Assembly: GCF_000337535.1 (NCBI RefSeq)
Contig: NZ_AOIP01000065.1
Coordinates: forward strand, 136,583-173,167
DNA: 36,585 nucleotides
Source of the DNA: Natrialba aegyptia DSM 13077
GTDB taxonomy: Archaea; Halobacteriota; Halobacteria; Halobacteriales; Natrialbaceae
Direction of reading: 5' to 3'
Part shown: positions 4,095 to 34,430 of the stretch, piece after piece
Position numbering within the stretch: position 1 is the first letter of the stretch
Layout: each line of letters starts with the position of its first letter
Program-made: the position numbers and the translations under genes
The notes under the pieces: model-generated
Databases searched by the model: none
The model's input: the letters and a program-made list of their open reading frames with translations, nothing else
What the model was told of the DNA's origin: nothing

Positions 4095-4095
4095 C

Positions 4096-6819: not shown

Positions 6820-6843
6820 CTATCCGCGATACATCGACACGCT

Positions 6844-10496: not shown

Positions 10497-10516
10497 GATT
10501 GGGTCAATATCTCGTG

Positions 10517-14468: not shown

Positions 14469-15958
14469 ACCGTCACCTCCCGGGTGTCGGCGACCCTGTC
14501 GCCACAGTCCCGGACCGCCTCGAGCATCGCCGCTACGTCCTCGAGCGTCGCCGTCGGGTTCAAGAGCGTCACCTTCAGGCTGGTCACGCCGTCGACGGTG
14601 GTTCGGGCGACGAGCGCCCGCCCGTCGTTCAAGAGTTCACGTCGGACGGCCGCGTTCAGGTTGCTCACGGTCTCGTCGTTCATCCCCTGACGGGGTCGAT
14701 AGCGAAAGACCACGGCGTTCAGCGTCGGCTCTCCCAGCAGCTCGAAGTCGTCGGCCTCGCGAACGAGTGCAGCCGCGTCGTCGGCCAGTTCGAGCGTGTG
14801 CTCGACGAGTTCGGCCAGACCAGTTCGGCCGAGCGTCCGGAACGCGACGTAGGGCTTGAGCGCGTCGAACCGGCGCGTCGTCTGAACCGACTTCGAGACG
14901 AGGTTCGGAATCCCGCCCTCGTCGTGGGCTTCCGGGTTGAGGTAGGCCGCGTTGCGGGCCATCAACCGGAAGTCCGCGCCGTCGCGGAGCAAGAGTGCCC
15001 CGCAACTGATCGGCTGGTAGAACAGCTTGTGGAAGTCGACGGCGATCGAATCGGCCCGCTCGATCCCGTCGAGCAGCGTGCTGAACTCGTCGCTCACCGC
15101 GAGCGCGCCGCCGTAGGCCGCGTCGACGTGGAACCAGAGGTCGCGGTCGGCGGCCCGGTCGGCAAGGGCGGGCAGCGGGTCGATGCTGCCGAAGTCGGTG
15201 GTGCCGGCGGTCCCGACGAGCGCGAAGGGGAGTTCGTCTCTCCGATCCAGGTCATCGAGGGCCGCGTCGAGTTCGTCGAGGTCCATGCGGCCGTCGGCGT
15301 CCGTCGGAACGGTGTAGACGGCTCGTTCGCCGAGCCCGAGGTGGTGTGCGGCCTGTTTGCCGGTGAAGTGGGCCGCTTCGGAACAGAGGATGCGAAGCGA
15401 CGGGGCCGCCGCGGGTAGGCCGTCGGTCTGTACGTTTCGGTCGAACTGCTGGTCGCAGTAGCGGTCGCGGGCGAGCAATAGCGCCTGGAAGTTCGACTGC
15501 GTCCCGCCGCTGGTGAAGACGCCGTCGGCGTCCGCGGGCAGGTCGAACAGCTCACAGAGGGCGGTCACGACTCGTTCTTCGAGGACCGTCGCAGCGGGTG
15601 CCTGGTCGAACGAGTCGAGCGACTGGTTCGTCGCGGTGAGCAGCGTCTCGGCGGCCAGGCCCGGAATCATCGGCGGACACTGGAGATGGGCCGCACAGCG
15701 GGGGTTCGACGGATCGACGGAGTGGCGAAGAACGCGCTCGGCAACCTCGTCGATCGTCATCTCGAGGCGTTGGCCCTCCTCGGGAACGACGGGGTCGTCG
15801 AACTGGGCGGCGAGTTCCTCCGGCGACGCTCCCGAGTGAGGCCGCTCGCGGTTCGCGACCGTCTCGATCACCGTCTCGACCGCCCGGTTCATCGCGTCCC
15901 GATAGCTCGTCTCGCCACGCCCGGTTCCAAGGAAGCACTCGTCGGCGCTCATGTTCAT
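14465..15958 (-). CDS. bdb: L-2,4-diaminobutyrate decarboxylase
   Basis: This 497-residue PLP-dependent group II decarboxylase should convert L-2,4-diaminobutyrate to 1,3-diaminopropane. I use the ATG at 15958, which overlaps the dat stop as ATGA; a second ATG two codons later is possible, and the long open extension to 16135 is only the shadow of dat. Visible motifs are the fold marker TSGGTQSNFQALLLARDR, the substrate/PLP segment WFHVDAAYGGALAVSD, and the PLP lysine in AVDFHKLFYQP at about K311. The C-terminal half continues with PEAHDEGGIPNLVSKSVQTTR, common in diaminobutyrate decarboxylases. It follows the aminotransferase that makes its substrate, a pairing known from haloarchaeal and bacterial diaminopropane-based siderophore clusters. 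Confidence 0.92.
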   Translation of the reverse strand: MNMSADECFLGTGRGETSYRDAMNRAVETVIETVANRERPHSGASPEELAAQFDDPVVPEEGQRLEMTIDEVAERVLRHSVDPSNPRCAAHLQCPPMIPGLAAETLLTATNQSLDSFDQAPAATVLEERVVTALCELFDLPADADGVFTSGGTQSNFQALLLARDRYCDQQFDRNVQTDGLPAAAPSLRILCSEAAHFTGKQAAHHLGLGERAVYTVPTDADGRMDLDELDAALDDLDRRDELPFALVGTAGTTDFGSIDPLPALADRAADRDLWFHVDAAYGGALAVSDEFSTLLDGIERADSIAVDFHKLFYQPISCGALLLRDGADFRLMARNAAYLNPEAHDEGGIPNLVSKSVQTTRRFDALKPYVAFRTLGRTGLAELVEHTLELADDAAALVREADDFELLGEPTLNAVVFRYRPRQGMNDETVSNLNAAVRRELLNDGRALVARTTVDGVTSLKVTLLNPTATLEDVAAMLEAVRDCGDRVADTREVTV

Positions 15959-17334
15959 GTGGATGCAGCCCCCGCTCGTTGCGTGGCTGAGCCGTCGACG
16001 GCCGCCGTAACGGCTTCGTCGAAGCGCGCTGCGATATCGTCCACCTGCGAGGCCGAGACGATCAACGGCGGCAGGAACCGCGCCGTTGCACTCTCCCGGC
16101 CGCCGAGTTCGATCACCAGCCCGCGATCGAAACACGCCGCCTGGACGGCTTCGGCGAGGTCTCCATCCGGCGCGGCCGGACCCGCACCCTGCCAGTCGGC
16201 ACTCTCGTCGACGAACTCGACGCCGAGCATCAGCCCGCGGCCGCGAACGTCGCCGATCGCGTCGAATCGTTCGGCGGTAGACTCGAGGTGATCGCGCAGC
16301 CGTGCTCCGACATCGGCCACGTGGTCGTCGAGATCGTTCTCGAGGATATAGTCGATCGTCGCCTCACCGGCCGCCATCGCGAGCTGATTCCCGCGGAAGG
16401 TACCGGCGTGGGCCCCCGGCTCCCAGGCGTCGAGGGACTCGTCGTAGACGACGACGGCGAGCGGGAGCCCGCCACCGATCGCCTTGGAGAGCGTCACGAC
16501 ATCGGGGACGATATCGGCGTGTTCGAACGCGTATAGTTCGCCCGTGCGACCGAGCCCCGCCTGGATCTCGTCGACGATTAACGGCACGTCGTGCTCCCGG
16601 GTGATTCGGCGAATGTCTTGCAGCCATTCTGCGGGCGCGGGCACGGCACCGCCCTCACCCTGGACCGGCTCGAGTATCATGCCGGCCGGGTCCGTGATCC
16701 CGCTTTCGGAGTCCGTGAGGAGATGCTCGACGTACCGGCTGGCGGTTCGGTGACCCTCCTCGCCGCCGATCCCGAACGGACAGCGGTAGTCAGCGGGATA
16801 CGGCAGGTGGTGGACCTCGCTGACCGTGCCCGAAACCGGCTCCTTAGCGGCCGTATCGCCCATCAGACTGAGCGCCCCGCTCGTCATCCCGTGATAGGCA
16901 CCCTGGAACCCGAGGACGCTTCGGTTCCCCGTCGCCGTCTTCACCAACTTCAGTGCCGCTTCGACGGCATCCGTTCCGGCAGGACTACAGAACTGTACGC
17001 GGGCAGAACGGGCGAACTCCGAGGGGAGACTCTCGAAGAGCGAATCCACGAACCGCTCTTTCGCCGGCGTCGAAATGTCCAGGGTGTGAAGCGGCCGATC
17101 CGCCTCGAGAACGCGCTCCATCGCCTCGCGAACTCGGGGGGGGTTGTGTCCGAGCGCGAGCGTCCCCGCACCCGCGAGGCAATCGTAGAACTCGTTGCCG
17201 TCCATATCCGTTACCGTCACGCCCTGAGCTTCGCGGATGGCGAACGGAAGATGGCGCGGGTACGTTCGCGCACTCGACTCGCGCGCCGTCTGTTGGGATA
17301 GAATCTTCTCGTTTCCGGCGGATAGATAGCTCAC
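15955..17334 (-). CDS. dat: diaminobutyrate--2-oxoglutarate aminotransferase
   Basis: This 459-residue class III PLP aminotransferase should make L-2,4-diaminobutyrate from aspartate semialdehyde and glutamate, the first dedicated step to 1,3-diaminopropane. It has the family signature SARTYPRHLPFAIREAQG near the start and CLAGAGTLALGHNPP (52-66). The phosphate-binding SPAGTDAVEAALKLVKTATG (117-136), the VDEIQAGLGRTG segment (254-265) and the PLP lysine K284 in TLSKAIGGG follow. The start is GTG, giving MSYLSAGNEKIL. An ATG ten bases upstream is in another frame. It is the first gene of the siderophore operon and lies directly behind two palindromes resembling iron-repressor sites. Confidence 0.93.
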   Translation of the reverse strand: MSYLSAGNEKILSQQTARESSARTYPRHLPFAIREAQGVTVTDMDGNEFYDCLAGAGTLALGHNPPRVREAMERVLEADRPLHTLDISTPAKERFVDSLFESLPSEFARSARVQFCSPAGTDAVEAALKLVKTATGNRSVLGFQGAYHGMTSGALSLMGDTAAKEPVSGTVSEVHHLPYPADYRCPFGIGGEEGHRTASRYVEHLLTDSESGITDPAGMILEPVQGEGGAVPAPAEWLQDIRRITREHDVPLIVDEIQAGLGRTGELYAFEHADIVPDVVTLSKAIGGGLPLAVVVYDESLDAWEPGAHAGTFRGNQLAMAAGEATIDYILENDLDDHVADVGARLRDHLESTAERFDAIGDVRGRGLMLGVEFVDESADWQGAGPAAPDGDLAEAVQAACFDRGLVIELGGRESATARFLPPLIVSASQVDDIAARFDEAVTAAVDGSATQRAGAAST

Positions 17335-18098: not shown

Positions 18099-19154
18099 TC
18101 AGGTGAAATCGATCACTTGCTTAATACAGTCGGTGGAATCGTCGAACGCATCCTCGAGTTCGGTCGGCGAGTACACATCGGTGATGATCCGGTCGAGGAA
18201 CCAGTCGGGAAGCGTTTCGAGCGACTCCTTCGCAGACTCGAAATGACGGATGTGCGAGTTCACGCTGCCGAGCAGCGCCTTGTTACCGAGTACCAGCTCC
18301 CGGTGGAGACGCCCGCCGTCGATATCGAACGTCCACTCGTTCGGGATGCCGAGCAAGACGCCGACGCCGTTCGGTGCCAGGACGTCGATTGTATCGTAGG
18401 CGTGTTTAGCGTGGCCGGTCGCCTCGTAGACGAGATCCATCGGTTCGTGGACGTCCGCGATATCCGAAACGGGCGTCGTTCGCGAATCGACGTACGTCGC
18501 ACCGAACTCCTCGATGATATCGATCGTCGGATCGGGTCGGTCGCGCCGCCCGAGACAGTACGAGCGCTCGACCGTCGGTTGCAACATCGCAAGCGTGAGT
18601 AGTCCCAGCGGGCCGTTGCCGAGAACGAGCGCCCGCTTCGGATCCCACTCGAACAGCGACCGCGACGCGAACGCGAGTTCGAGCGCCTTGACCGTATTGC
18701 TCATCGGTTCGATCAACACGCCCGTCTCGGCGAACGCGTCGGGAATCGGAACCAGAAACTCGGCCGGCGTCGTCACGAACTCCGCCATGAACCCGTGTGC
18801 GCCCTCGATACCGCGCTCGCGGTAGGTCCCCGGGGGAGCCATATCCGGTTCGCCCCGCTCGAAGAACTCGTGGGAGCCCTCGGCCGGCCGTCTCACGGTC
18901 GGAACGACGAGTTCACCTTCCGTCAAATCCGTTCCGTTCGGATCGGCGACGGCACAGACGGCTTCGTGACCGAGTATCTGGTACTCGTCTCCCGCGGGAA
19001 AGCCGCCGTGATTTCCGTCAAGCACCTCGAAATCGGTGCCGTCGATGCCGACTCGAAGCGTTCGAAGCAGCACTTCACCGTCGGCGGGCGTCGGTTCGGG
19101 AACGTCGAGCAGCGACGGCTCGGTCTCGCCGCGCTCGACGGCGATCGCGTTCAT
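18099..19154 (-). CDS. gdh: glucose 1-dehydrogenase family protein (medium-chain dehydrogenase, haloarchaeal type)
   Basis: This 351-residue protein closely follows the pattern of the haloarchaeal NADP-dependent glucose dehydrogenase. It has RTLRVGIDGTDFEVLDGNHGG in the first domain, zinc ligands D38, H63 and E64 (in LGHEAV) and probably E149 in LIEPMSN. The nucleotide-binding motif is LVLGNGPLGLLTLAM, with YCLGRRDRPDP behind it, where the arginines should accept the NADP 2'-phosphate. The family oxidises aldoses at C1 to aldonolactones. Its start overlaps the ridA stop (ATGA at 19151-19154), putting it in an operon with RidA and a SelA-like PLP enzyme. That context makes an amino sugar such as glucosamine a plausible alternative substrate to glucose or galactose; this is inference. 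Confidence 0.9.
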   Translation of the reverse strand: MNAIAVERGETEPSLLDVPEPTPADGEVLLRTLRVGIDGTDFEVLDGNHGGFPAGDEYQILGHEAVCAVADPNGTDLTEGELVVPTVRRPAEGSHEFFERGEPDMAPPGTYRERGIEGAHGFMAEFVTTPAEFLVPIPDAFAETGVLIEPMSNTVKALELAFASRSLFEWDPKRALVLGNGPLGLLTLAMLQPTVERSYCLGRRDRPDPTIDIIEEFGATYVDSRTTPVSDIADVHEPMDLVYEATGHAKHAYDTIDVLAPNGVGVLLGIPNEWTFDIDGGRLHRELVLGNKALLGSVNSHIRHFESAKESLETLPDWFLDRIITDVYSPTELEDAFDDSTDCIKQVIDFT

Positions 19155-19537
19155 CGGCTCACCCGTGCAACGACTTCGATTTCGACGCCGATGTCGACGG
19201 GGAGTGCCGCGACCTCGACGGCGCTGCGTGCGGGATAGGGATCGCTCAGGTACGTTTCGTACACCTCGTTGATCGCCTCGTAATCGTCCATGTCCCTGAC
19301 GAAGACCGTCGATTTCACGATGTCGTCGAGCGAACTGTTCGCCGCCGTCAGGACGGCATCGATGTTTTCCATCGTCCGTCGCGTCTGGGCCTCGATACTC
19401 TCGCCGACGATCTCGTCCGTTTCAGGGTCGATCGGCCCCTGACCCGAGACGTAAACCGTTCCGTCGTCGATTACGCCCTGTGAAAACGGGCCGATACTGG
19501 CCGGTGCACTGACTGTAGATACCTCTTTCATAGCCAT
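19151..19537 (-). CDS. ridA: RidA family reactive imine/enamine deaminase
   Basis: This 128-residue YjgF/YER057c/UK114-family protein hydrolyses enamine/imine intermediates released by PLP enzymes to keto acids and ammonia. Typical segments are SAPASIGPFSQGV (residues 10-22), VYVSGQGPIDPETDEIVG, QTRRTMENIDAVLTAANSSLDDIVK, and DPYPARSAVEVAALPVDIGVEIE in two adjoining parts. The arginine of PARSAVEV is the expected carboxylate-binding residue. A second ATG two codons downstream could also be the start. It sits 57 bases after the SelA-like gene and overlaps the dehydrogenase gene. This suggests that the PLP enzyme upstream releases an enamine-type product, as an ammonia-lyase would. Confidence 0.92.
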   Translation of the reverse strand: MAMKEVSTVSAPASIGPFSQGVIDDGTVYVSGQGPIDPETDEIVGESIEAQTRRTMENIDAVLTAANSSLDDIVKSTVFVRDMDDYEAINEVYETYLSDPYPARSAVEVAALPVDIGVEIEVVARVSR

Positions 19538-19594: not shown

Positions 19595-20836
19595 CTATGG
19601 ATTTGATCCCGATTCTGCGCCCATATGCGCCCGAATTCGCTCGAGGACGTACGACACCTCGTCGTCGTCGAGGCACATCGGGTTGATCGTCACGATACCC
19701 TCGTCGAGCCGATCAGCCCCGACGAACACGCGAGGGTTCTCGGCGCGGAGCGAGCGGACGAGTTCGGTCGCGGAGCAAGCCGCGTCGGTCGGATCGACCT
19801 GGACGACGACCGTCGGGGAGACCGAGACGTCGGTGTCTGCGGTGACGGTCGCGTCGATTCCCGAACTACCGGCGAGCGACTCGGCGATGCGGGTCGCCGT
19901 CCGGTTCCAGGCCTCCGACTGGGCCGCGCGGTCGGTGTCGCGGAACGAGTCGAGCGCGACGAGGAGGCCGACGAGTTCTTCTTTGCCGACTTTCAGCGAG
20001 CGCCCGATCCCCTGTCGCGGGACGCCCTCGAGTCGGTCGGTGTCGATGAGTTCGGACGGCGGGTCCCAGACGGCATCTGCGGCGTGCATGTCGAGGTGTT
20101 GCAGTGCGATAGACTCGATGAGGTCCTCGCGACCGGCGACGATCCCGGTCGTCTGCGGGCCACGGATCGCCTTGCCGCCGCTGAAGACGACGAGATCAGC
20201 GCCGGCGTCCGTGAACCGCGACAGGTTCTCCGCGGGCGGTAACTCGGCTGCGGCGTCGACGATGACGGGCACGTCGTGTTCGTGTGCAACCGTCGTAACG
20301 GCCTCGAGTGGCGGCTCGGTGAACGGTTTCTGGACGTAGCCGATCGCGGCCGTGTTCTCGGTGATTCCCGCCTCGATTTCCCAGGGCTCGACGTTCGTCG
20401 ACCCGGTTCCGAGGGTGCGGTCGTTCGTCCCCACGTCGACGATCGTCGCCCCCGCGGCGCGAAACGCGTGATCGTACCCGGTGCGGTGGGTTCGCGGCAT
20501 GACGATTTCATCGGGGATGCCATCCGTCTCGGGGAGTCGCTCCATCCGGTCGACGTTGCGCCCCGCGAGCGCGGCGGCGGCGCTCAAGAGGAGCCCGGCG
20601 GCAGCGCCGCTGGTCACGTAGCCGGCCTCCGCCCCGGTCGCGTCGGCGATCCGTCTGCTGGCCGCGGCCTGCAAGTCGGACAGTCTGACGAACGACTCGC
20701 CGGCGCGCGCCATCGCGTCGAGCGCGTCGGTTCGAATGCGACTCCCCCCGATACGCGTCTTCGTCCCGGTCGCGTTGATGACCGCGGGGACGCCGAACTC
20801 GTCGTAGATAGAGTCGTCTTTCACAGCTCGGTCCAT
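19595..20836 (-). CDS. SelA/DgaE-like PLP-dependent enzyme (candidate amino-sugar-acid ammonia-lyase)
   Basis: This 413-residue fold-type I PLP enzyme of the SelA-like group starts at the ATG at 20836, which has a TATA box at the leaderless distance. The longer open frame to 21073 is shadow. It opens with YDEFGVPAVINATGTKTRIGG, the usual N-terminus of SelA-like enzymes. The PLP-phosphate region is AGYVTSGAAAGLLLSAAAAL, the aspartate to the ring is in VIVDAAAELPP (D194), and the PLP lysine is K222 in FSGGKAIRGPQTTG. This SGGKAI.GP motif is closer to DgaE, D-glucosaminate-6-phosphate ammonia-lyase, than to a selenocysteine synthase. It heads the operon with RidA and a glucose dehydrogenase. I infer deamination of an amino-sugar acid, possibly D-glucosaminate; the substrate is unproven. 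Confidence 0.85.
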   Translation of the reverse strand: MDRAVKDDSIYDEFGVPAVINATGTKTRIGGSRIRTDALDAMARAGESFVRLSDLQAAASRRIADATGAEAGYVTSGAAAGLLLSAAAALAGRNVDRMERLPETDGIPDEIVMPRTHRTGYDHAFRAAGATIVDVGTNDRTLGTGSTNVEPWEIEAGITENTAAIGYVQKPFTEPPLEAVTTVAHEHDVPVIVDAAAELPPAENLSRFTDAGADLVVFSGGKAIRGPQTTGIVAGREDLIESIALQHLDMHAADAVWDPPSELIDTDRLEGVPRQGIGRSLKVGKEELVGLLVALDSFRDTDRAAQSEAWNRTATRIAESLAGSSGIDATVTADTDVSVSPTVVVQVDPTDAACSATELVRSLRAENPRVFVGADRLDEGIVTINPMCLDDDEVSYVLERIRAHMGAESGSNP

Positions 20837-20857
20837 ACCGACAGTGCGGAGATGTGA

Positions 20858-20866
20858 GATAAAAAA
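20858..20866 (-). promoter_or_regulatory. TATA box of the SelA-like/ridA/gdh operon
   Basis: On the minus strand TTTTTTATC is centred 26 bases before the ATG at 20836, the normal position for a leaderless archaeal transcript. The palindrome at 20882-20900 lies just upstream of it. Confidence 0.6.
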
Positions 20867-20881
20867 GTTCGGTTTCAACGG

Positions 20882-20900
20882 TGTTTCGGTGCGGGAAACA
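20882..20900. promoter_or_regulatory. palindrome TGTTTC-N7-GAAACA, candidate IclR operator
   Basis: TGTTTCGGTGCGGGAAACA has perfect 6-base arms. It lies in the short divergent region between the SelA-like operon and the IclR gene, where it could control both. The same pattern recurs at 22731, 22837, 22960 and 35942. Confidence 0.6.
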
Positions 20901-20930
20901 CTAATGACATCCCGCCGGAATACACGGTGT

Positions 20931-21668
20931 ATGAACGCGGACGGCCACGGAGAGACCATCGATGCGACGGCTCGCTCACTGTCGGTGCTGAACGTTCTCA
21001 TCGACACCCCCGAACCGGTCGGCGTCACGGAAATCGCCTCGCAGACGGCGATGACGAAGAGCACCGTCCACAAACACGTGAGTACACTCGCGAACTTGGG
21101 CTACGTCACCAAAGTCGGTCGCCAGTACGAGCCTTCGATCCGGTTTCTCGACTGTGCGAGACGAGTGCAGTGGGATACCGATCTCGTCGACACGGCGCGC
21201 GAACCGGTCGACGAACTCGCGGCGATGGCAAACGAAGTCGCAGGATTCGTCGTCGAACAGAACGGCGTCGCGGTCGACGTCTACTGCGCCGATCAGTACG
21301 CAAGCGGAACGTTCCCGGCGTACAACACTCGTCACCTCCACTGCAGTGCCGCCGGGAAAGCTATCCTCGCGGCGCTCCCGGACGAGCGTCTCGAGTCCGA
21401 GCTGCCGGCCCTGACCCCCCACACGATCACCGACGGCGAAGAACTGCAGTCCGAACTCGATCGCATCCGCGAACGCGGCTTCTCCCTCGATCGACAGGAA
21501 CAGTTTGCCGCGGTCAACAGCGTCGCCGTCAGCGTCGAAACCGACTCGCTGACCGGTGCCGTCTACGTCTCCGGACGAGCCGATGAACTCTCCGGAAAAC
21601 GCTTCGAGGAGAACATTCCCGGCCTGCTTCTCAGCGCGAGTCGACTGTTGACCGATGCGCTCGAATAA
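20931..21668 (+). CDS. IclR family transcriptional regulator
   Basis: This 245-residue protein carries an N-terminal winged helix-turn-helix (about residues 8-72: SVLNVLIDTPEPVGVTEIA, then MTKSTVHKHVSTLANLGYV) and a C-terminal IclR effector-binding domain with HLHCSAAGKAILAALPD and RGFSLDRQEQFAAVNSVAV. The ATG at 20931 gives a start like other haloarchaeal IclR proteins; an in-frame ATG at 20904 would add nine residues. It is divergent from the SelA-like/ridA/gdh operon, with a TGTTTC-N7-GAAACA palindrome between them. IclR proteins in archaea often control sugar and sugar-acid catabolism. It is the natural candidate regulator of this region and of itself, sensing a pathway metabolite. Confidence 0.92.
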   Translation: MNADGHGETIDATARSLSVLNVLIDTPEPVGVTEIASQTAMTKSTVHKHVSTLANLGYVTKVGRQYEPSIRFLDCARRVQWDTDLVDTAREPVDELAAMANEVAGFVVEQNGVAVDVYCADQYASGTFPAYNTRHLHCSAAGKAILAALPDERLESELPALTPHTITDGEELQSELDRIRERGFSLDRQEQFAAVNSVAVSVETDSLTGAVYVSGRADELSGKRFEENIPGLLLSASRLLTDALE

Positions 21669-21738
21669 CCGCACCCGCGACCGCAGACCGGCCGGGAGTA
21701 ACAATTAACACGGATTACTATCAACATGGCGGGTGCAC

Positions 21739-22440
21739 ATGAAGTTATTAGCAATCGTTGCCCATCCCGACGACGCGGATATCTTCTGCGGCGGGACGCT
21801 CGCAAAACACGCCGACCGCGGCGATTCGGTCACCATCGCCCACATGACCAAAGGCGAGTACGGCGGCTTCGAGACGACGGAAGCGGACATCGCGGCGACG
21901 CGGGAAGCGGAGGCGCGTCGGTCGGGCGAGCACCTCGGCGCGAGCGACGTAACTTTCCTCGGCTTCCCCGACGGCCGCATCGAGTACTCGCTCGAAAATC
22001 GTCTCTCCATCGTCGAAACCATCCGCGCCGCCGACCCGGACCTGATCCTCACGCACTACCGAGACGACATGCATCCGGACCACCGGATCACCGCCCGCCT
22101 CGTGACCGACGCCTACTACATGGCATCCCTCCCGCTCGTCGAAAGCGACTTCGAACCGTGTGACCCGGACAACGTGTACTTCTTCGGCAAACCGACCTCC
22201 TCGTTCGAACCGACCGTCCACATCGACATTTCGGGCTACGAAGACCGGAAAGCCGCCGCCATCGGCGAACACGAATCACAGGTGGCCTTCCTCGAAGAAC
22301 ACGGCGGGATCGACGCCGAGTTCGACAACCTCATCGACGGCGTCGCCGCGGAAGACGCCACCCGCGGCAAACGAACCGGCGTCGCCAGCGCGGAGGGCTA
22401 CGTTCCGCTTCACGACCGGGCCGACGCGTTCCTCGGCTGA
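21739..22440 (+). CDS. LmbE/PIG-L family deacetylase
   Basis: This 233-residue zinc-dependent N-deacetylase belongs to the family of GlcNAc-PI deacetylase, MshB and archaeal diacetylchitobiose deacetylase (Dac). It begins MKLLAIVAHPDDADIFCGG, with zinc ligands H9 and D12 in AHPDD. The third ligand is H115 in MHPDHRITAR. D11 is the probable catalytic base. The ATG at 21739 gives the usual start immediately before the first strand; a GTG two codons earlier is in frame. It stands alone between the IclR gene (70 bases upstream) and a gene-free stretch. In a locus with chitinases and a sugar importer, removal of acetyl groups from GlcNAc or chitooligosaccharides is the most sensible role, as for Dac in Thermococcales. 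Confidence 0.9.
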   Translation: MKLLAIVAHPDDADIFCGGTLAKHADRGDSVTIAHMTKGEYGGFETTEADIAATREAEARRSGEHLGASDVTFLGFPDGRIEYSLENRLSIVETIRAADPDLILTHYRDDMHPDHRITARLVTDAYYMASLPLVESDFEPCDPDNVYFFGKPTSSFEPTVHIDISGYEDRKAAAIGEHESQVAFLEEHGGIDAEFDNLIDGVAAEDATRGKRTGVASAEGYVPLHDRADAFLG

Positions 22441-23016: not shown

Positions 23017-24168
23017 TTACCACTCGGCGATACTGCCGTCCTCGTGCCGCCAGATCGGATTCGACCAGTCGAGATCCTGCCGGGACCGGTTCCGGACCGC
23101 CGACTCGTCGATGTCAACCCCGAGTCCCGGCCCGTCGAGCGGGGACAGATAGCCGTCGGTGAACTCGAAGACGGAGGCATCGTGGAGGTAGTGATCCGCT
23201 GCGCTCTTCGGTGCCGGATAGATATCGAAGCCGTGATCTTGAATCAACAGGTTGGGAATGTACGTGCTCACCTGGAGCGAGGCCGCGAGTGCGATCGGAC
23301 CGAGCGGACAGTTCGGCGCGACGGCGATATCGTGGGTTTCGGCCATGGCGGCGAGACGGACGAGTTCGGAGATGCCACCGGCGTGTGAGACGTCGGGTTG
23401 GATGACGTCGATGCCGCCCCGTTTGAAGAGAGGTTTGAAGTCCCAGCGGGAGTAGAGACGTTCACCGGTCGCCAGTGGGACGTCGGTCCGACCCGCGAGT
23501 TCGGGAATGTATTCGAGGTTTTCGGGAAGGACTGGTTCTTCGACGAATAACGGGTCGAACGGTTCGAGGGCGGGGATAACGCGCTTTGCGAGTGACTTGG
23601 AGATACGGCCGCGGAAATCGACGACGATGTCCATTTCGTCGCCGACGACGCTGCGAACGTGTCGAACGCGGTCGACGATGTCGGTGATTGCGCGCGGCGG
23701 TTCGAGGTGGCGTAGCTGGTTCGACGCATCCATCTTCAATGCGGTATAGCCGGCTTCTAACAGCTGTTTCGCTTCCGTCCCGATTTCGCTGACGCGGTCG
23801 CCGCCGATCCACTGGTAGACGCGAATGCGATCACGAGTTCGCCCGCCGAGCAGTTCGTAGACCGGGATATCGAAGTGCTTGCCCTTGATGTCCCAGAGGG
23901 CTTGATCGATCCCGGCAATTGCACTCATCAATACGGGACCGCCTCTGTAGAAACACCCGCGGTACATCGCCTGCCAGTGATCTTCAATGTTGTGGGGATC
24001 CTTGCCGAGTAGGTAGCTCGTCAGAATTTCCTCGACGGCGGTGCGAACGGTCTGGGCTCGTCCTTCGACGATCGGCTCTCCCCAGCCGACGAGCCCGGTA
24101 TCCGTCTCGAGTTTCAGAAAGAGCCAACGCGGGGGGACTTCGAACAGTTCGTACCCGGTGATTTCCAT
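23017..24168 (-). CDS. D-galactonate-dehydratase-like enolase superfamily protein with both catalytic histidines replaced
   Basis: This 383-residue protein aligns end to end with DgoD: PPRWLFLKLETDTGLVGWGEP near the start, FYRGGPVLMSAIAGIDQALW (73-92), and the closing WSNPIWRHEDGSIAEW. The metal ligands are kept: D184, E210 (in FVEEPVLPE) and E236 (in ATGERLYSR). The two histidines used by E. coli DgoD as acid and base (H185, H285) are not: DFHGR reads DFRGR (R186), and APHCPLGP reads APNCPLGP (N286). The position of DgoD E310 is D311. I checked both substitutions on the DNA. It is probably not a working D-galactonate dehydratase by the known mechanism. It is divergent from the sugar ABC importer, which points to sugar-acid or amino-sugar-acid chemistry that is still open. 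Confidence 0.88.
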   Translation of the reverse strand: MEITGYELFEVPPRWLFLKLETDTGLVGWGEPIVEGRAQTVRTAVEEILTSYLLGKDPHNIEDHWQAMYRGCFYRGGPVLMSAIAGIDQALWDIKGKHFDIPVYELLGGRTRDRIRVYQWIGGDRVSEIGTEAKQLLEAGYTALKMDASNQLRHLEPPRAITDIVDRVRHVRSVVGDEMDIVVDFRGRISKSLAKRVIPALEPFDPLFVEEPVLPENLEYIPELAGRTDVPLATGERLYSRWDFKPLFKRGGIDVIQPDVSHAGGISELVRLAAMAETHDIAVAPNCPLGPIALAASLQVSTYIPNLLIQDHGFDIYPAPKSAADHYLHDASVFEFTDGYLSPLDGPGLGVDIDESAVRNRSRQDLDWSNPIWRHEDGSIAEW

Positions 24169-24319: not shown

Positions 24320-24341
24320 ATTATGTATAATGTATCATAAT
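24320..24341. promoter_or_regulatory. inverted repeat over the promoter of the sugar importer
   Basis: ATTATG and CATAAT flank TATAATGTAT, about 20-40 bases before the ATG at 24361. The TATA-like core lies between the arms. A GGAAACA half-site (24313-24319), like the right arm of the IclR-type palindrome, adjoins it. Confidence 0.45.
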
Positions 24342-24360: not shown

Positions 24361-25638
24361 ATGAGAAACCATACCCGTCGGAAGATACTGGCGACGACAG
24401 GTGTAGCGACCGCGTTCGGCGTTGCAGGGTGTCTCGGTGGCACTAGCGGTGGGACGACACTCGAGACTCGGTATATGGATGCACCGGGCTTAGAGGAATT
24501 TTTCGAGGAGCACACCGCACAGTTCGAGGACGAAACCGGAATCGAAGTCGAGTACGAGTTCGTCGGCTGGGGAGAAGCGCAGGAGACGATGCTCAGCGAT
24601 ATTATGAGCCGAAGTGGACCGGACGTCCACGAAATCGCCTCGACGTGGATTCCGGAGCAGTACGACGCGGGCGGATGGATGGATCTGGACTCCGGCAGCG
24701 TCGCCGATGAACTGCCATCGTCGGACCTGTTCACGGACGGCGCATTGGATGTCGCCACGTTCCAGGACACGCTCGTCGGAATTCCGTGGTTCTGGGGCCC
24801 ACGGGCGTACCAGCAGGTCGACGAACGGATCGAAGCCGGTGGAGTCGAGGGGACGCCGTCGGACTGGGATGGCCTGATCGAGCAGGCACAAGCGTACGAT
24901 GCAGAGAACAATTACTTCGCCATCATGGGTTCGGATTTCGAGCCGATTCGGAACTTCGCGATGTTCCTCTGGCAAAACGGCGGGCAGTTGCTCACCGACG
25001 ACAACGGCGCCCCGGCGTTTCACGACGACAGCGGGGTCGAAGCCCTCGAGTTCTACGCGGACCTGTACGCCGAGTACGACGTCTTGCCGTCCGAAACCAT
25101 CGAGTGGGGAGCAGCCGACATTCAGGGCGCGTTCACCGGCGGGCAGATGGCCAGTACGTGGGGCGCGCTCGGAACGGTCTCCGCCTACGAGGAGGCGGAC
25201 GGCAACGCGCTCGACGACCTGTCGGTCGCGGCTCCGCCTGCGGGCCCCGACGGCGACCGGGGGACGTTCTTCGGGATGGAACTGCTCGGGATTCACCCGT
25301 GGACCGACGAACCCGAGGCCGCCGCGCAGTGGATCGACTATCTCCTGCAGGCAGAGCCAAACGCCGCCGTCTCGAACACGGTCGGATTCCTGCCGACGAA
25401 TCCCGACGGACTGGAGACCGACTACTTCGACAACGAACTCTATCGGACCTTCGACGAGGAGGTGTTCCCCCACGCCCGAACGTATCCGCAGGTCCTCGGC
25501 TGGGGCGAGATCGAAAGCGAACTCAACAGCACGGTCTTCGAGGTGCTACAGAGTGCCGTTACGGGCGGGCTAGCGGCCGGTGACGCCGAAGCGGCACTCG
25601 AACGGGCTGCCTCCGTGGCCGAACAAACGTTAGAATGA
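24361..25638 (+). CDS. carbohydrate ABC transporter substrate-binding lipoprotein (Tat)
   Basis: This 425-residue family 1 binding protein (maltose/sn-glycerol-3-phosphate/multiple-sugar type) starts with a twin-arginine signal, TRRKILATTG. A hydrophobic stretch and lipobox VAGC follow, with C24 as the lipid anchor, the normal export route for haloarchaeal binding proteins. The mature part opens with FEEHTAQFEDETGIEVEYEF, then VHEIASTWIPEQYDAGGWMDL. It carries GAFTGGQMASTWGALGTV and the late segment HARTYPQVLGWGEIESELN, typical of the family. It would capture an extracellular sugar and hand it to the two permeases downstream. Chitinase genes three genes away suggest GlcNAc or chitooligosaccharide, but the ligand cannot be read from sequence. 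Confidence 0.93.
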   Translation: MRNHTRRKILATTGVATAFGVAGCLGGTSGGTTLETRYMDAPGLEEFFEEHTAQFEDETGIEVEYEFVGWGEAQETMLSDIMSRSGPDVHEIASTWIPEQYDAGGWMDLDSGSVADELPSSDLFTDGALDVATFQDTLVGIPWFWGPRAYQQVDERIEAGGVEGTPSDWDGLIEQAQAYDAENNYFAIMGSDFEPIRNFAMFLWQNGGQLLTDDNGAPAFHDDSGVEALEFYADLYAEYDVLPSETIEWGAADIQGAFTGGQMASTWGALGTVSAYEEADGNALDDLSVAAPPAGPDGDRGTFFGMELLGIHPWTDEPEAAAQWIDYLLQAEPNAAVSNTVGFLPTNPDGLETDYFDNELYRTFDEEVFPHARTYPQVLGWGEIESELNSTVFEVLQSAVTGGLAAGDAEAALERAASVAEQTLE

Positions 25639-25688: not shown

Positions 25689-26675
25689 ATGACACGGACG
25701 AGTAGTCGGGTCCGGAGCAGCGTCGCCGAAATCGAAATCGGGCGCTATCTCCCGCTGTACAATCGGCTATCGGACGAACAGCAGTACGCGTACAAACTGT
25801 TGCTACCGGGGCTGCTGATGATGCTGCTGATTCACTTTATCCCGATCGTCTGGGGTGTCCTGATCAGCGTTCTCGGCGTCGACTCGGGCTACGTTTCCCA
25901 GTGGTACGAAGCCCCGTTCGTGTGGGCGGAGAACTATCGGTTCGTGCTCGACCCGCGCACCGTCGTCGGGGAACGGTTCTGGTACTCGCTGCGCCAGACG
26001 GTCATCTTCTCAGTGGGGACCCTCCTGTTGACGTATGTGCTGGGGCTAACGGCCGCACTGCTGCTCAACCAGCGGTTCAAGGGGCGGTTCGCGGCTCGAA
26101 CGCTCCTGTTGCTACCGTGGGTCGCGCCGTCCGTCGTCACGCTCCTCATCTGGCGGATGATGCTCCAGCAACAGAGCGGGATCATCAATTCGCTGTTGCT
26201 GTCGCTGGGCGTGATCTCGGAACCGATCTACTGGCTGATCGGTGACAACACGATCTGGACGCTCGTCCTCGTCCACTCCTGGACGCAGTTTCCGCTCGTC
26301 ATGATCATGCTCTACGCCGGGCTCCAGTCGATCCCCGAGCAGTTGTACGAGGCCGCATCGATCGACGGCGCGGGCCGGTGGGAACAGTTCCGATATATCA
26401 CGTTCCCGCAGTTGAAGCCGGTATCCGCGGTCGTCGTCCTGTTGATGATGCTGTGGACGATGATCAACTTCACCTCGCCGTACATCCTGCTCGGCGCACA
26501 GCCGCCCCAGTCCGGACAGGTATCGATCCTGTACATCTACAACTTCGCGTTCTCGAACTACCAGTTCGGCCGCGGGGCCGCGATGAGCGTCGTCCTCTTT
26601 GCGATCGCGATGGCGATGGCGATGCTCTACTACAAGTACCTCTTCGATCAGGACTTCACGGAGGGCGACCGATGA
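25689..26675 (+). CDS. carbohydrate ABC transporter permease (MalF/UgpA type)
   Basis: This 328-residue permease begins 50 bases after the binding-protein gene. An amphipathic N-terminal part precedes a first helix (KLLLPGLLMMLLIHFIPIVW). Further helices follow, and the coupling motif LYEAASIDGAGRWEQFRYIT (about 220-239) matches the EAA loop of sugar permeases. The C-terminus has another helix (AMSVVLFAIAMAMAMLYYKY) and a short charged tail. It pairs with the second permease, whose ATG overlaps its stop (26672-26675). Confidence 0.92.
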   Translation: MTRTSSRVRSSVAEIEIGRYLPLYNRLSDEQQYAYKLLLPGLLMMLLIHFIPIVWGVLISVLGVDSGYVSQWYEAPFVWAENYRFVLDPRTVVGERFWYSLRQTVIFSVGTLLLTYVLGLTAALLLNQRFKGRFAARTLLLLPWVAPSVVTLLIWRMMLQQQSGIINSLLLSLGVISEPIYWLIGDNTIWTLVLVHSWTQFPLVMIMLYAGLQSIPEQLYEAASIDGAGRWEQFRYITFPQLKPVSAVVVLLMMLWTMINFTSPYILLGAQPPQSGQVSILYIYNFAFSNYQFGRGAAMSVVLFAIAMAMAMLYYKYLFDQDFTEGDR

Positions 26676-27598
26676 TTCCCGACGAGTTCCGACTCACCGA
26701 ATCGGGACGAGAGACGCTGTTCAACCTCCTCTCGAAGGGCGCCCTGGGCTGTCTCCTCCTCTATGCCCTGTTTCCGATCTACTGGATGATCCTCTCGAGT
26801 TTCCGAACGCGAGCCGAGATTACGGCCGCAGAGCCATCCGTACTCCCGTTCACCCTCGACGAAGCAGCAGATGCCATCCAGGACCCGAGCGTTCTCCTGA
26901 CGCTCCTCGAATACGAGAACTACCTGACGATGTGGGACCGGTTTCCGGTGTTCGATTACTTCGTCAACAGCCTCATCATCGCGAGCGTGACGACCGTGTT
27001 TGCACTCGCCGTCGGCTGTCTGGGAGGCTACGCGTTCTCACGCTACCGGTTCCCCGGCAAGATCGGCGTCGGCGGCGCACTCCTCGGAACGCAGATGATC
27101 CCCGGAATCCTCATCCTGCTGCCGATGTTCCTGCTGTTCGTCTGGATTCAGGAAACGCTCGCGATTCCGCTGATCGACACCTATCACGGGATCATCTTCG
27201 TCTACACGACGTTTACCGTTCCCGTCGCGATCTGGATGCTTCGAGGGTTCTTCGACTCCATCCCGAACGCCATCGAGGAGGCTGCCCGAGTCGACGGCTG
27301 TTCCCGGTTTCAGGCGCTCGTCCGCGTCGTCCTCCCGATGGCCGCACCGGGTATCGCCGCGACCGGCATGTTCGTCTTCCTCACCGCGTTCAACGAAGTC
27401 CTGTTCGCCTCGGTACTCGCTCGCGGCGACGTAACTCCGTTCGCGATCGGTATCCAAAGCTTCGAAACGCAGACGACGGCGTACTGGGGCGAGATGATGG
27501 CCGCATCGACGGTCGCGACGGCGCCCATCCTGATCCTGTTTATCCTGTTCCAGAAACCGATCGTCGAAGGACTCACGGAGGGCAGTGTCAAGCAGTGA
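26672..27598 (+). CDS. carbohydrate ABC transporter permease (MalG/UgpE type)
   Basis: This 308-residue permease starts at the ATG at 26672, which overlaps the previous stop. Upstream open frame is only shadow. The first helix is around GCLLLYALFPIYWMILSSFR. YAFSRYRFPGK is typical of MalG-type proteins, and the EAA coupling loop is IEEAARVDGCSRFQALVRVV. Late helices end in FILFQKPIVEGLTEGSVKQ, the normal closing sequence of this family. With the first permease it forms the membrane channel. The ATPase gene follows after about 270 bases and its own promoter. Confidence 0.92.
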   Translation: MIPDEFRLTESGRETLFNLLSKGALGCLLLYALFPIYWMILSSFRTRAEITAAEPSVLPFTLDEAADAIQDPSVLLTLLEYENYLTMWDRFPVFDYFVNSLIIASVTTVFALAVGCLGGYAFSRYRFPGKIGVGGALLGTQMIPGILILLPMFLLFVWIQETLAIPLIDTYHGIIFVYTTFTVPVAIWMLRGFFDSIPNAIEEAARVDGCSRFQALVRVVLPMAAPGIAATGMFVFLTAFNEVLFASVLARGDVTPFAIGIQSFETQTTAYWGEMMAASTVATAPILILFILFQKPIVEGLTEGSVKQ

Positions 27599-27868: not shown

Positions 27869-29035
27869 ATGAGCCGTGTTACCATAGATGAACTCACGAA
27901 AGTGTACGACTCACCCAGTGGATCGATCGAAGCCGTCGACGACCTCACGCTCGCCATCGACGACGGCGAGTTCGTCGTCTTCGTCGGTCCGTCCGGGTGT
28001 GGTAAATCGACGACGTTGCGCTGTATCGCCGGACTCGAGACCGTAACTGACGGGACGATCGAGTTCGGTTCGGAGGACGTGACGGACCAGAAACCGAAGG
28101 AGCGAGATATCGCGATGGTGTTCCAGAACTACGCGCTGTATCCGCATATGACCGCCCGAAAGAACATGGCCTTCGGACTGAAGATGTCGACCGACCTTTC
28201 AGAGGACGAGATCGAAGACCGGGTCGAGGAGACGGCACAAATGATGGGGATCGAAGAGTTGCTGGCCGACAAACCGAAAGCGCTCTCGGGCGGCCAGCAA
28301 CAGCGGGTCGCGCTCGGCCGTGCCATCGTCCGCGATCCGTCGGTGTTTCTCATGGACGAGCCGCTGTCGAACCTCGACGCGAAGCTCCGCGCCCAGATGC
28401 GGACGGAACTCCAGCAGTTACAGCACGATCTGGACGTAACGACGGTGTACGTCACGCACGACCAGACGGAAGCGATGACGATGGGGGATCGGATCGTCGT
28501 CCTCAACGACGGTGAACTCCAGCAAGTCGGCACGCCGCTCGAGTGCTATCACCGGCCGGCGAATCGGTTCGTCGCCGGGTTCCTCGGCTCGCCGCCGATG
28601 AACTTCCTGCCGGTCGAGGCTGATCGCGACGCTGGCGAGCTTTCACATCCTCGCTTTTCGCTCTCGCTATCGGACTCGGTCGTCGCCGATCTCGACGGTA
28701 CTGAACTCGTCATGGGGCTCAGACCGGAACACGGGTCGCTGACGACGACGCCGGACGCACACCCGGAGCCCGATCGGTTGGTCGAGGCGACCGTCACGGT
28801 GACGGAACCGATGGGAGACGTGACGAACGTCTATCTCGATGTCGGCGGCGAATCAGTCACGGTGACGGCCGGCGGTCATCTGGGGCTGACGGACGGAGAG
28901 TCAGTCTGGCTGTACGTCCCGGAAGCGAAGTTGCATCTGTTCGATGCCGAGACTGGGACGGCGATCAAACACAGCGACGAGCCGATCGAATCAACGCGAG
29001 TTTCCGAGGCGAGTCGGCACGCTGAGACGGTGTAG
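27869..29035 (+). CDS. carbohydrate ABC transporter ATPase (MalK/UgpC type)
   Basis: This 388-residue ATPase powers sugar import. Walker A is GPSGCGKST (40-48), the Q-loop is [13 protein letters not shown], the signature LSGGQQQR starts near residue 138, Walker B is [15 protein letters not shown], and the H-loop is [13 protein letters not shown]. After about residue 235 comes the MalK-type regulatory region with [13 protein letters not shown] and VMGLRPEH, the OB-fold TOBE segment. Such ATPases often serve several importers. The 5' part [25 protein letters not shown] in two pieces is normal, so the ATG at 27869 is secure. Confidence 0.95.
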
Positions 29036-29312: not shown

Positions 29313-31121
29313 ATGAAACGAACACGGCGACACGTACTACGGAACGCAACGACACTCTCGACCGTCCTTGCCGGACTCGGGACGAGCACGCTGACAGCAG
29401 CACAGGAACAGGACTATCCCACCTGGGATCCAGAGGCGATTTATACTGACGGCGACCGCGTTATCCACGCCGGCTACGTCTGGGAAGCGCAGTGGTGGAC
29501 TCAGGGCGACGAACCCGGTACAAACGAGTTCGGTCCCTGGGAGGAAATCGAAGAGCACGACGATGACGACGGCGATGGCGGCGACGACGGCGTCGTCGCC
29601 CGCCTCTCGGCCAGCACGCAGTTCCCCGACCCCGGCGAAACGATCGAGTTCGACGCCAGCGATTCGACGGGCGACATCGAAAGCTACGAATGGGACTTTG
29701 GCGACGGAACGACCGCAACCGGCGAGACCGTTACCCACGCGTTCGATGAAGGAGAGTACGACGTGACGTTGACCGTCGAAAGCGGTGCCGGCGAAACCGC
29801 CAGCACGTCGATCCAGATTACTGCCGGTCATCCCTCATCGGACGAGAAACGCGTCGTCGCCTACTACCGCCAGTGGGCGCAGTACGACCGTGATTTCGTC
29901 CCCGGAGATATCCCGTTCGAGCAGGTCACGCACGTCCAGTACGCCTTCGCTCGTCCGGAAGAAGACGGCTCCGTCGAACTCGTCGGCGACAGTCACGGCC
30001 AACAAGTATTCTACGCCGAAGAAGACTGGCAAGGGCCGGACCGCGGCAAGACGTTCGCGGAATACGCCGCCGAACGGGACGATACGAAGTTCGTCCTCTC
30101 GATCGGTGGCTGGGGCGACTCGGAGTACTTCTCCGACGCCGCGTTGACGCAGGCGAACCGAGAGCGCTTCGCCAGCGACTGCGTCGATCTCGTCGAGATG
30201 GCGAACCTCGACGGGATCGATATCGACTGGGAGTTCCCCGGTGGCGGCGGCTGTACGGGAGACGACCCCGTCTGCGATATGGACAACGTCGTTCGCGACG
30301 GCGACCAGGAGCGCTTTACGCTCCTCTGCCAGGAGGTTCGCGACCAGCTCGATACCGCCGCGACGAACGACCCGGAAAGAGACGAACCGTACGAACTCAC
30401 CGCGGCCGTGAGCGCAAACCCCGAGATCGTCGAGGGAACCGCCGACGGGAACGACGGCCTCGAGCACGACGAACTCTCGGATATCCTCGATTTCGTCCAG
30501 GTGATGACGTTCGATTATCGGGGTATCTGGAGCGAGACGACGGGCCACCACGCGCCGTTGATGGAGAACTCGGACGACACGTTCGAGGACGCACACGTCT
30601 GGAACGCCGAGTACGCGCTCCAGTACTGGGCGGATCAGGGTTGGGACCCCGACCAACTCAATATGGCCGTGCCGTTCTACGGACGGAGCTGGACGGACGT
30701 ACAGCCGCCCGCGGACGGCATCGGGACCGGCGAGGACGACGGCCTGTTCCAACCGTACGAGGGGACCGGCCGAGATGCGAGCGGTGAGGGCTCCTATCCG
30801 AGCTGGGACCCGGCACAGGGAACTAGCTATGCGGGCGTCTGGGAGTGGTTCGACCTCGAAAGCGACGGTCGCGAGGGGAGTAACCCGGTCGATCTCGACG
30901 GTCCCGGCTGGGAGACGTACTTCGACGAGGACGCGGTCACGGCCTGGAGTTTCAATGCCGACGAACGGCTCATGATCTCCCACGATACCGAGCAGTCGAT
31001 GGCGGCGAAGATGGACTGGCTTCGCGACTCACCCTACGGCGGAACCATGCTGTGGGCAATCGGTGGAGACACGTACGATGGAGACCTTATCGGAACGCTC
31101 TGGCAGTCGCTCAACGGCTAA
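29313..31121 (+). CDS. secreted GH18 chitinase with chitin-binding and PKD domains
   Basis: This 602-residue enzyme should cut chitin outside the cell. A Tat signal (TRRHVLRNATTLS, ending near TAA-QEQ) leads to a CBM5/12-type chitin-binding module (about 34-80) with aromatic residues YPTWDP, VWEAQWW and GPWEEI. An Asp-rich linker (82-93) and a PKD domain (about 96-171, with YEWDFGDGT) follow. The GH18 catalytic barrel starts near residue 178 with VVAYYRQWAQYD. SIGGW lies at 263-267, and the catalytic motif is DGIDIDWE with D300, D303, D305 and acid/base E307. The end of the barrel has GGTMLWAIGGD. A GAGGG ribosome-site-like sequence precedes the ATG. It is the first of three chitinase genes in a row. 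Confidence 0.95.
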   Translation: MKRTRRHVLRNATTLSTVLAGLGTSTLTAAQEQDYPTWDPEAIYTDGDRVIHAGYVWEAQWWTQGDEPGTNEFGPWEEIEEHDDDDGDGGDDGVVARLSASTQFPDPGETIEFDASDSTGDIESYEWDFGDGTTATGETVTHAFDEGEYDVTLTVESGAGETASTSIQITAGHPSSDEKRVVAYYRQWAQYDRDFVPGDIPFEQVTHVQYAFARPEEDGSVELVGDSHGQQVFYAEEDWQGPDRGKTFAEYAAERDDTKFVLSIGGWGDSEYFSDAALTQANRERFASDCVDLVEMANLDGIDIDWEFPGGGGCTGDDPVCDMDNVVRDGDQERFTLLCQEVRDQLDTAATNDPERDEPYELTAAVSANPEIVEGTADGNDGLEHDELSDILDFVQVMTFDYRGIWSETTGHHAPLMENSDDTFEDAHVWNAEYALQYWADQGWDPDQLNMAVPFYGRSWTDVQPPADGIGTGEDDGLFQPYEGTGRDASGEGSYPSWDPAQGTSYAGVWEWFDLESDGREGSNPVDLDGPGWETYFDEDAVTAWSFNADERLMISHDTEQSMAAKMDWLRDSPYGGTMLWAIGGDTYDGDLIGTLWQSLNG

Positions 31122-31317
31122 TGGCTAACGGCCAAACCGCGATGCCGACAACGGCGGATAACGGACAACACACAACGGACCGATGACCGCATAACGAGTT
31201 CAGCACGCATACGCAGACCACAGTGCAGACGCAACACGGACGACAACAGTGCGTAGAACAGACGGAAGGACACACATCGATGTCAACCCACAATTACAAC
31301 CAAACGATTGCACACGC

Positions 31318-33071: not shown

Positions 33072-34430
33072 ATGAAACGAACACGACGAGACGTACTACG
33101 GAACGCATCGACACTGTCAGCACTCGCCGCCGGCGTTGGACTGGGTACTTCCGTCTCAGCACAGGAGTATCCTGCATGGAATCCCGAAACCGCCTATACA
33201 GAGGGCGATCGGGTGCGCCACGATGGCGCCGTCTGGGAAGCGAAGTGGTGGACCCGCGGCGACGAGCCAGGCGAAGGCGGTGAGTGGGGGCCGTGGAACG
33301 AAATCGGTCCTGCCGACCCTGGTCCGAGCGCCTCGATTACCCCGAGTACGACGAACCCCGAACCAGGGCAGGAAATCGAATTCGACGGCACTAGCTCCAC
33401 CGGCGAAATCGTTACCTACGACTGGAGTTTCGGCGACGGAACCGGAGCCACAGGCTCGGTTGTCACCCACACGTACGGCGAGAGCGGCAGATACGACGTC
33501 GAACTAACCGTCACCGACGCCGACGGTGAAAGCGATACTGCCAGAACGATTATGTCCGTTGGCGACACCGCACCGCCAGCAGCCGACCGATGGTTCGCCC
33601 CGTATCAGGGTACCTGGCAAGATATCGTCGGCGAGACGTTGAACGCGAATACGAATCGGGTCGTCCTGTCGTTCGTCGGCGACGGAACCGACGACGGCGA
33701 CGTAACGCCAGGCTGGTTAGCCGGCTGTAATCAGCCACCCTGTGACGACGAACCGCTCGAGACGTATCTCGATGAAATCCAGACGCTCCAGGACGAAGGC
33801 ATCGAGGTCGGCGTCGCAATCGGCGGCTGGCAGGGCCGCGTCGTTGCCCGCGACGCCGAGAGCGCAACTGAACTCAAGGATGCCTATGCAGAGATCCTCG
33901 ACACCCTCGGCGTAACACACCTCGATATCGACGACGAGAACGCCCACCGTCGTGACCGAACGATCTACGAACTGCGAAACGAAGCGCTCGCGATGTTACA
34001 AGCCGAGCGGCCGAACGTTACGGTCGGCTACACAGTCCCGGCTACCGAAAACGGAATCGCAAACTCCGAACACGCCCAGGCCAGAACCTGGGTCGAAGAC
34101 GCCGCAACGAAAGGCGTCAACCTCGCATACGTGAACATCATGACGATGGGTATGAACCCGACGACCACCGACAAGATCGTCTCCGCGTGTGAGGGCACCG
34201 TCGACTTCCTCGGGGACGTGTATCCGGACAAATCCGAACCGGAACGCTGGGCGCTGCTCGGAAACACGCCAGACATCGCAGAAAACTCGATTACAACCGA
34301 GGTTGCCGCCGATATCGTCGCCTTCGCCGACGAACAGGGTATGGGACACCTGTCCTACTGGGCACTCTACAACGATCCCGAGGGAGAATTCTCGGAGATC
34401 TACGCTGACTTCGAGGACGGGCCGACCTGA
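33072..34430 (+). CDS. secreted GH18-type chitinase of a different subfamily, with chitin-binding and PKD domains (third)
   Basis: This 452-residue protein has a Tat signal (KRTRRDVLRNASTLS), CBM5/12 module about 32-79 (EYPAWNP, WEAKWW, GPWNEI), PKD domain about 86-164 (YDWSFGDGT) and a short barrel from about 173 (RWFAPYQGTW). Its catalytic strand reads VTHLDIDDEN (D285, D287, E289), which keeps the DxDxE core but not the DGIDIDWE form of its neighbours. VAIGGWQGR (248-256), a VGYTVPAT strand and VNIMTMGM fit the ChiC-like GH18 group found in bacteria and Thermococcus ChiA. It likely attacks chitin in another mode than the other two. The first ~50 bases of the gene are nearly identical to those of the first chitinase, so the N-terminal part was shuffled. 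Confidence 0.9.
   Translation: MKRTRRDVLRNASTLSALAAGVGLGTSVSAQEYPAWNPETAYTEGDRVRHDGAVWEAKWWTRGDEPGEGGEWGPWNEIGPADPGPSASITPSTTNPEPGQEIEFDGTSSTGEIVTYDWSFGDGTGATGSVVTHTYGESGRYDVELTVTDADGESDTARTIMSVGDTAPPAADRWFAPYQGTWQDIVGETLNANTNRVVLSFVGDGTDDGDVTPGWLAGCNQPPCDDEPLETYLDEIQTLQDEGIEVGVAIGGWQGRVVARDAESATELKDAYAEILDTLGVTHLDIDDENAHRRDRTIYELRNEALAMLQAERPNVTVGYTVPATENGIANSEHAQARTWVEDAATKGVNLAYVNIMTMGMNPTTTDKIVSACEGTVDFLGDVYPDKSEPERWALLGNTPDIAENSITTEVAADIVAFADEQGMGHLSYWALYNDPEGEFSEIYADFEDGPT

Follow-up and report, generated by a model that had tools for sequence, protein, structure and literature searches.

What does an enolase-superfamily protein do when it resembles D-galactonate dehydratase (DgoD) over its whole length and yet has lost both catalytic histidines of that enzyme? 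This question is raised by a gene lying in a 36,585-nucleotide stretch of a haloarchaeal genome of 4.6 Mb (C64:136583-173167), referred to here as the window. Enolase-superfamily enzymes bind the carboxylate of their substrate on Mg2+ and take the adjacent proton. In DgoD, H285 with D258 acts as the base, H185 is the acid for departure of the 3-OH, and E310 supports the enolate. The gene and its active-site codons are as follows, the residues being located from the alignment with DgoD described below.

23017-24168, minus strand: DgoD-like enolase-superfamily protein, 383 amino acids, D147/R186/N286/D311 type, ATG start
23728-23736, minus strand: K145-M146-D147 in the second barrel strand (DgoD K144-x-N146), from codon positions and alignment columns
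23611-23619, minus strand: D184 (metal ligand)-F185-R186 (DgoD H185 position)
23539-23541, minus strand: E210, metal ligand
23461-23463, minus strand: E236, metal ligand
23392-23394, minus strand: D259 (DgoD D258, the dyad partner); of the 40 clade members, 34 have D, four V, one A and one N
23311-23313, minus strand: N286 (DgoD H285 position)
23236-23238, minus strand: D311 (DgoD E310 position)

The reference sequence, DgoD of E. coli K-12 (b4478, taken from NC_000913.3), aligns with the window protein from end to end, with 49% identity over 382 residues and a single gap. The metal ligands D183/E209/E235 are all retained as D184/E210/E236, and the dyad partner D258 is retained as D259; the general acid His185 is replaced by R186, the general base His285 by N286 and Glu310 by D311. 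A preliminary description of the locus had claimed a close DgoD match with an intact metal site and these three exchanges, and the alignment reproduces them exactly to the residue number: the histidines do not sit elsewhere. Two points were absent from that description, namely the location of the gene on the minus strand and a fourth swap in the second strand, two residues past the conserved lysine, where DgoD N146 becomes D147 and K-x-N thus becomes K-x-D. The seventh-strand histidine base of the mandelate racemase subgroup is also absent, its position being that of N286. The predicted structure (AF2; pLDDT 88.8, pTM 0.90) displays the two-domain architecture of the superfamily, a capping domain and a (beta/alpha)8 barrel with three acidic metal ligands. 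It matches superfamily members with Z scores of 44-52, the nearest solved fold being Ralstonia pickettii DgoD (3RR1/3RRA; Z 52, rmsd 2.0 over 363 residues).

Homologues were sampled from named genomes and from 391 haloarchaeal genomes. At columns 147/186/286/311, 40 distinct sequences have D/R/N/D and 118 have N/H/H/E; this set contains no intermediates. The D/R/N/D sequences, referred to below as the altered enolases, are 61-99% identical to the window protein (99% for its closest named relatives, from Natrialba taiwanensis and N. asiatica) and are carried by 40 of the 391 haloarchaeal genomes; a DNA pattern scan of these genomes for DFRGR followed about 97 codons on by NCP retrieves 37, and the alignment adds three. 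Among haloarchaeal homologues, the arginine and the asparagine are confined to one clade of 40 sequences having this set, most homologues being N/H/H/E, so that D/R/N/D is ruled out as a general haloarchaeal trait. In a tree built without the catalytic columns, the D/R/N/D sequences form a single branch (SH-aLRT 98), consistent with one change. Pairwise dN/dS values inside the clade range from 0.02 to 0.15, i.e. the clade is under strong purifying selection. No variation is seen among the 39 clade sequences of the residue comparison at the four replaced positions, the metal ligands or K145 (R186, N286 and D311 each being present in 40 of 40 members), and Y141, Q151, V260, G313 and F314 are also clade-specific in this 39-sequence set; second-shell residues are mostly shared with DgoD. 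Position 259 has changed to V, A or N in six of the 40 members versus D in all 118 canonical sequences, and drift at this one position of an otherwise invariant site is expected if the His-Asp dyad is unused while the rest is selected.

Decay or sequencing error is ruled out as the cause of the exchanges, the D/R/N/D set being fixed in 40 species. The earlier view of a coordinated change is upheld by the single clade, the invariant replacements, the purifying selection and the strict genomic linkage reported below, and a new reaction or substrate is suggested. An unlikely alternative is that of a pseudoenzyme, folded and metal-binding but inactive, that serves as a regulator, a ligand binder or a subunit: both acid/base histidines are gone and a gene for an IclR regulator adjoins the enolase gene in many clade loci, but the replacements vary no more than the metal ligands do, whereas drift like that of D259 would be expected at a dead site. 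The best reading is that the altered enolase is a neofunctionalised DgoD paralog. A canonical H/H/E copy co-occurs with it in eight genomes (G059, G083, G360, G183, G378, G272, G277 and G073).

Automatic annotation was expected to name the protein D-galactonate dehydratase, and it does: the NCBIfam equivalog model for this enzyme, NF010624 (cut-off 311), accepts it at 571.9 bits, and the cluster figure of a 2025 paper labels the corresponding gene GAD (PMC12343721). The residues and the genomic context both suggest that the name is probably wrong. Three genes of the Natrialba genome pass NF010624, and in two of these the acid/base site is altered. Note that a same-genome paralog, 57% identical to the window protein (L137:12223-13374; C60:24222-25370), has the set A147/R186/H286/S311; its gene lies beside an IclR gene, a kinase gene of FGGY type judging from its sequence, and a PIG-L gene that shares 65% identity with that of the window. 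The third match to the model, a V/H/H/E paralog (L135:17459-18628; C64:129458-130627), is located about 6 kb before the window in a stretch that holds further enolase-superfamily paralogs. A Halomicrobium-type genome encodes a divergent DgoD-like paralog with the set L/H/S/P (L228:390-1511), a second altered active site.

The genes that surround the altered enolase gene in the window are the following.

18099-19154, minus strand: Zn-type glucose-dehydrogenase family protein (PF16912)
19151-19537, minus strand: RidA-family enamine/imine hydrolase
19595-20830, minus strand: DgaE-family PLP-dependent lyase, homologous part (mechanical ORF to 21073)
20844-21668, plus strand: IclR-family regulator
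21733-22440, plus strand: PIG-L (CE14-type) deacetylase
24361-25638, plus strand: binding protein of a sugar ABC transporter
25689-26675, plus strand: ABC permease 1 (MalF-like), from sequence and conserved linkage
26672-27598, plus strand: ABC permease 2 (MalG-like; start inferred), from sequence and conserved linkage
27869-29035, plus strand: ABC ATPase (UgpC/MalK type)
29313-31121, plus strand: GH18 chitinase with CBM5/12 and PKD domains
31249-33060, plus strand: second GH18-type chitinase, by similarity to the first
33072-34430, plus strand: third, weak GH18 protein with CBM5/12, its GH18 match lying just under the cut-off
34652-35653, minus strand: 333-residue protein that matches neither Pfam nor NCBIfam

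Several other features of the window can be mentioned. The 333-residue protein recurs beside DgaE-like genes in about ten loci. An inverted repeat, TTATGTATAATGTATCATAA, lies at 24321-24340, upstream of the transporter gene, and is largely kept in intergenic regions of related Natrialba and Natrarchaeobius; it occurs as a single copy in the window and hence provides no evidence of co-regulation through a shared operator. Positions 8664-17334 contain a siderophore operon-like set (IucA/IucC-like, lysine/ornithine-monooxygenase-like, diaminobutyrate decarboxylase and aminotransferase genes), whose decarboxylase matches RhbB below the cut-off (456 of 900 bits). Positions 4-7782 carry the genes for a Dpp-type peptide/oligosaccharide ABC transporter, after which comes a DapA/KdgD-family aldolase-like gene.

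The linkage between the altered enolase and the DgaE-like lyase is strict. A DgaE-like gene is present in all 40 genomes that carry the altered enolase, versus 88 of 391 overall, and it lies at most 10 kb from the enolase gene in 33 of the 34 checkable clade loci (32 within the fetched stretch, plus G106, where it lies about 9 kb off, just past that stretch). In the Halomicrobium locus, the DgaE-like, altered enolase and IclR genes are consecutive. Genomes are not independent, and we therefore also counted genera: 14 of 14 genera with the altered enolase have a DgaE-like gene, compared with 32 of 86, an outcome with a chance probability of about 1e-7. Within genera, both proteins are gained and lost jointly: four genomes have both and three have neither in one genus (g1), six and 15, respectively, in a second (g2), and in a third (g33) nine have both, two have the lyase only and 13 have neither. 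No DgaE-like gene was found near any of the 16 haloarchaeal canonical H/H/E loci, which constitute the fair comparison because the haloarchaeal query would miss distant bacterial DgaE proteins; with bacteria included, the count is 0 of 76. Other genes found near the altered enolase in the 34 clade loci encode GDH (28 loci), PIG-L (27), a sugar transporter (27), RidA (20) and chitinase (20), and the Haloarcula cluster contains an extra GH3 glycosidase and a SIS-domain protein. The genomic context thus points away from galactose and toward the use of glucosamine and chitin. In our view, the altered enolase in all likelihood works in the GlcN/GlcNAc pathway.

The converse association is looser, the altered enolase being absent from 48 of the 88 genomes that have a DgaE-like gene. 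That all DgaE loci require an enzyme of the enolase superfamily is only partly true: most loci without the D/R/N/D type have none. In six of these loci, another member of the superfamily, with K-x-K, D-x-N and a strand-7 His by motif, lies near the DgaE-like gene (L196:3682-5223, L197:12051-13235, L202:12030-13265, L205:3756-4871, L219:1268-2425 and L188:16854-17213).

The lyase itself bears on the nature of the pathway. In the bacterial enzyme DGL, His163 protonates C3, which avoids release of an enamine, and the phosphate of the substrate was modelled bound by Arg301, Arg332 and Arg346 (PMC9529869). The His162/His163 pair is absent from all the haloarchaeal DgaE-like proteins compared. The window's protein keeps the PLP lysine (SGGK) and the carboxylate-binding Arg226 (AGR), and a HMMER alignment places T, G and M at the three phosphate-site arginines. 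Lacking both the histidine pair and these arginines, the window's lyase probably acts on unphosphorylated glucosaminate, in which case the kinase postulated in the literature may not exist and KDG would be phosphorylated instead. Haloarchaea use a semi-phosphorylative Entner-Doudoroff route in which KDG is phosphorylated; the Natrialba genome encodes PfkB-type sugar kinases, which are at most candidates for this step.

A lyase without the C3-protonating histidine may release a reactive 2-amino-2-ene acid, and the altered enolase could handle this product, binding it on Mg2+ and protonating or hydrolysing it to KDG beside RidA. A site without a C2 base is consistent with a reaction in which the proton has already been abstracted, and the lyase and enolase genes are adjacent in Halomicrobium; however, DgaE-like proteins that lack a nearby altered enolase miss the same histidines, so that there is no complementarity, and RidA already supplies this function. 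We consider such a role improbable. Compensation by the altered enolase for the lost histidine is rejected, the histidine being missing with or without the enolase.

How, then, would the neofunctionalised paralog work? D184, E210 and E236 would hold Mg2+, on which the carboxylate of an acyclic sugar acid would bind and the enolate be stabilised. Neither the base dyad H285-D258 nor the acid H185 would be used, and R186 and D311 may replace H185 and E310 as electrostatic or acid partners. As N286 and a drifting D259 leave no base on that face, proton transfer, if it occurs at C2, would be carried out by K145/D147 from the second-strand side, i.e. the place of K164/K166, which lie on the second-strand face in mandelate racemase. 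The likeliest reaction would be the dehydration of D-glucosaminate, of its N-acetyl form or of its C2 epimer towards 2-keto-3-deoxygluconate. Assignment to this reaction class and substrate family, a beta-elimination on an amino-sugar acid of the pathway, is possible but doubtful. One fact that counts against it is that the pathway consisting of PIG-L, GDH, the DgaE-like lyase and KDG looks complete without the altered enolase. D-glucosaminate, like D-galactonate, is 2R, and its alpha-proton would face the seventh-strand side, where there is only N286; D147 as the base would suit a 2S acid or another binding mode. A simple glucosaminate dehydratase reading is weakest at this base-face mismatch, which is what raises the rival hypotheses considered here.

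One of these is a C2 epimerase or racemase that would provide the lyase with the right epimer of an amino-sugar acid by 1,1-proton transfer. Racemases are known in the superfamily and D147 is a candidate base on the side of mandelate racemase K166, but a two-base epimerase needs both faces, and the other one offers only N286 and a drifting D259, making this quite improbable. Equally improbable is that the protein still dehydrates D-galactonate (or D-gluconate) by means of a rewired acid/base set, since the 49% identity to E. coli DgoD, the 572-bit NF010624 match and the conserved second shell are opposed by the joint swap of both histidines, E310 and the second-strand N, by the canonical paralogs kept in several of the same genomes and by neighbours that are aminosugar genes and not galactose genes.

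Altogether, the altered enolase is very probably not a galactonate dehydratase. It probably performs an accessory or branch step, because more than half of the genomes with the lyase (see above) do without it, and its connection is probably closer with chitin and GlcNAc oligomers than with the central lyase reaction. The explanation as a whole, namely a neofunctionalised, non-galactonate paralog acting with the DgaE-like lyase in the catabolism of GlcNAc/glucosamine from chitin, has in our judgment about the same chance of being right as of being wrong. A bolder proposition, a minority possibility that we put forward tentatively, is that Lys-x-Asp, Arg, Asn and Asp (strands 2, 3, 7 and 8, respectively) make up a novel catalytic set for an amino-sugar-acid reaction new to the superfamily, on an archaeal route for chitin carbon; candidate reactions would be the dehydration or deamination of glucosaminate or N-acetylglucosaminate, or the processing of an enamine left by the lyase.

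Chitin is a food for haloarchaea in salt lakes, and the haloarchaeal use of GlcNAc after uptake is only partly predicted in the 2025 literature. The D/R/N/D clade supplies this pathway with a conserved enzyme of unassigned role, and suggests that proteins from about 40 sampled species are given a wrong name by a curated equivalog model. It also offers a natural example of the replacement of a whole acid/base set on a retained enolase-superfamily scaffold, and some of the genomes concerned also hold canonical paralogs that allow comparison.

Several known systems can be set against this one. The pathway predicted for Natrarchaeobius in 2025 begins with a deacetylation, followed by an oxidation that gives D-glucosaminate, which an unknown kinase phosphorylates and an ammonia-lyase converts to KDPG; its gene cluster matches ours and, in the available part of the paper, the enolase gene is drawn as GAD with no step given and the altered active site goes unmentioned (PMC12343721). 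An earlier survey, from 2011, placed the haloarchaeal galactonate dehydratases in one group and called for experiments on chitin/GlcNAc use (PMC3102087). Marine bacteria convert N-acetylglucosaminate to KDG via a deacetylase, a PLP enzyme, RidA and KdgK (PMC9537276). The bacterial PLP-lyase routes likely share with the haloarchaeal one the same end (glucosaminate to KDG or KDPG), a PLP lyase and RidA, and differ from it in that the haloarchaeal DgaE-like proteins are devoid of the His pair and the window's lyase of the phosphate-site arginines. No enolase-superfamily step is described for these bacterial routes in the available parts of the literature, and our search of openly accessible papers found no report of an enolase-superfamily glucosaminate dehydratase or of another amino-sugar catabolic step in the superfamily. 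ManD/RspA belongs to the same subgroup as the window protein and has the same fold (Z about 45), but the identity is only about 31% and the ManD model NF043051 gives 253.2 bits against a cut-off of 550; moreover, ManD, whose base is not on the seventh-strand His, still has histidine at the D-x-H position, and K145 is the counterpart of its Arg147. Finally, DgoD (E. coli b4478 and Ralstonia 3RR1/3RRA) shares with the window protein full-length homology (49-50%), the fold (Z 52), the metal ligands, the second-strand lysine (K144 = K145) and most second-shell residues; it differs at H185, H285, E310 and N146, where the window protein has R, N, D and D, respectively, and in its genomic setting, the altered enolase lying among GlcNAc and chitin genes instead of those for a galactonate kinase and aldolase.
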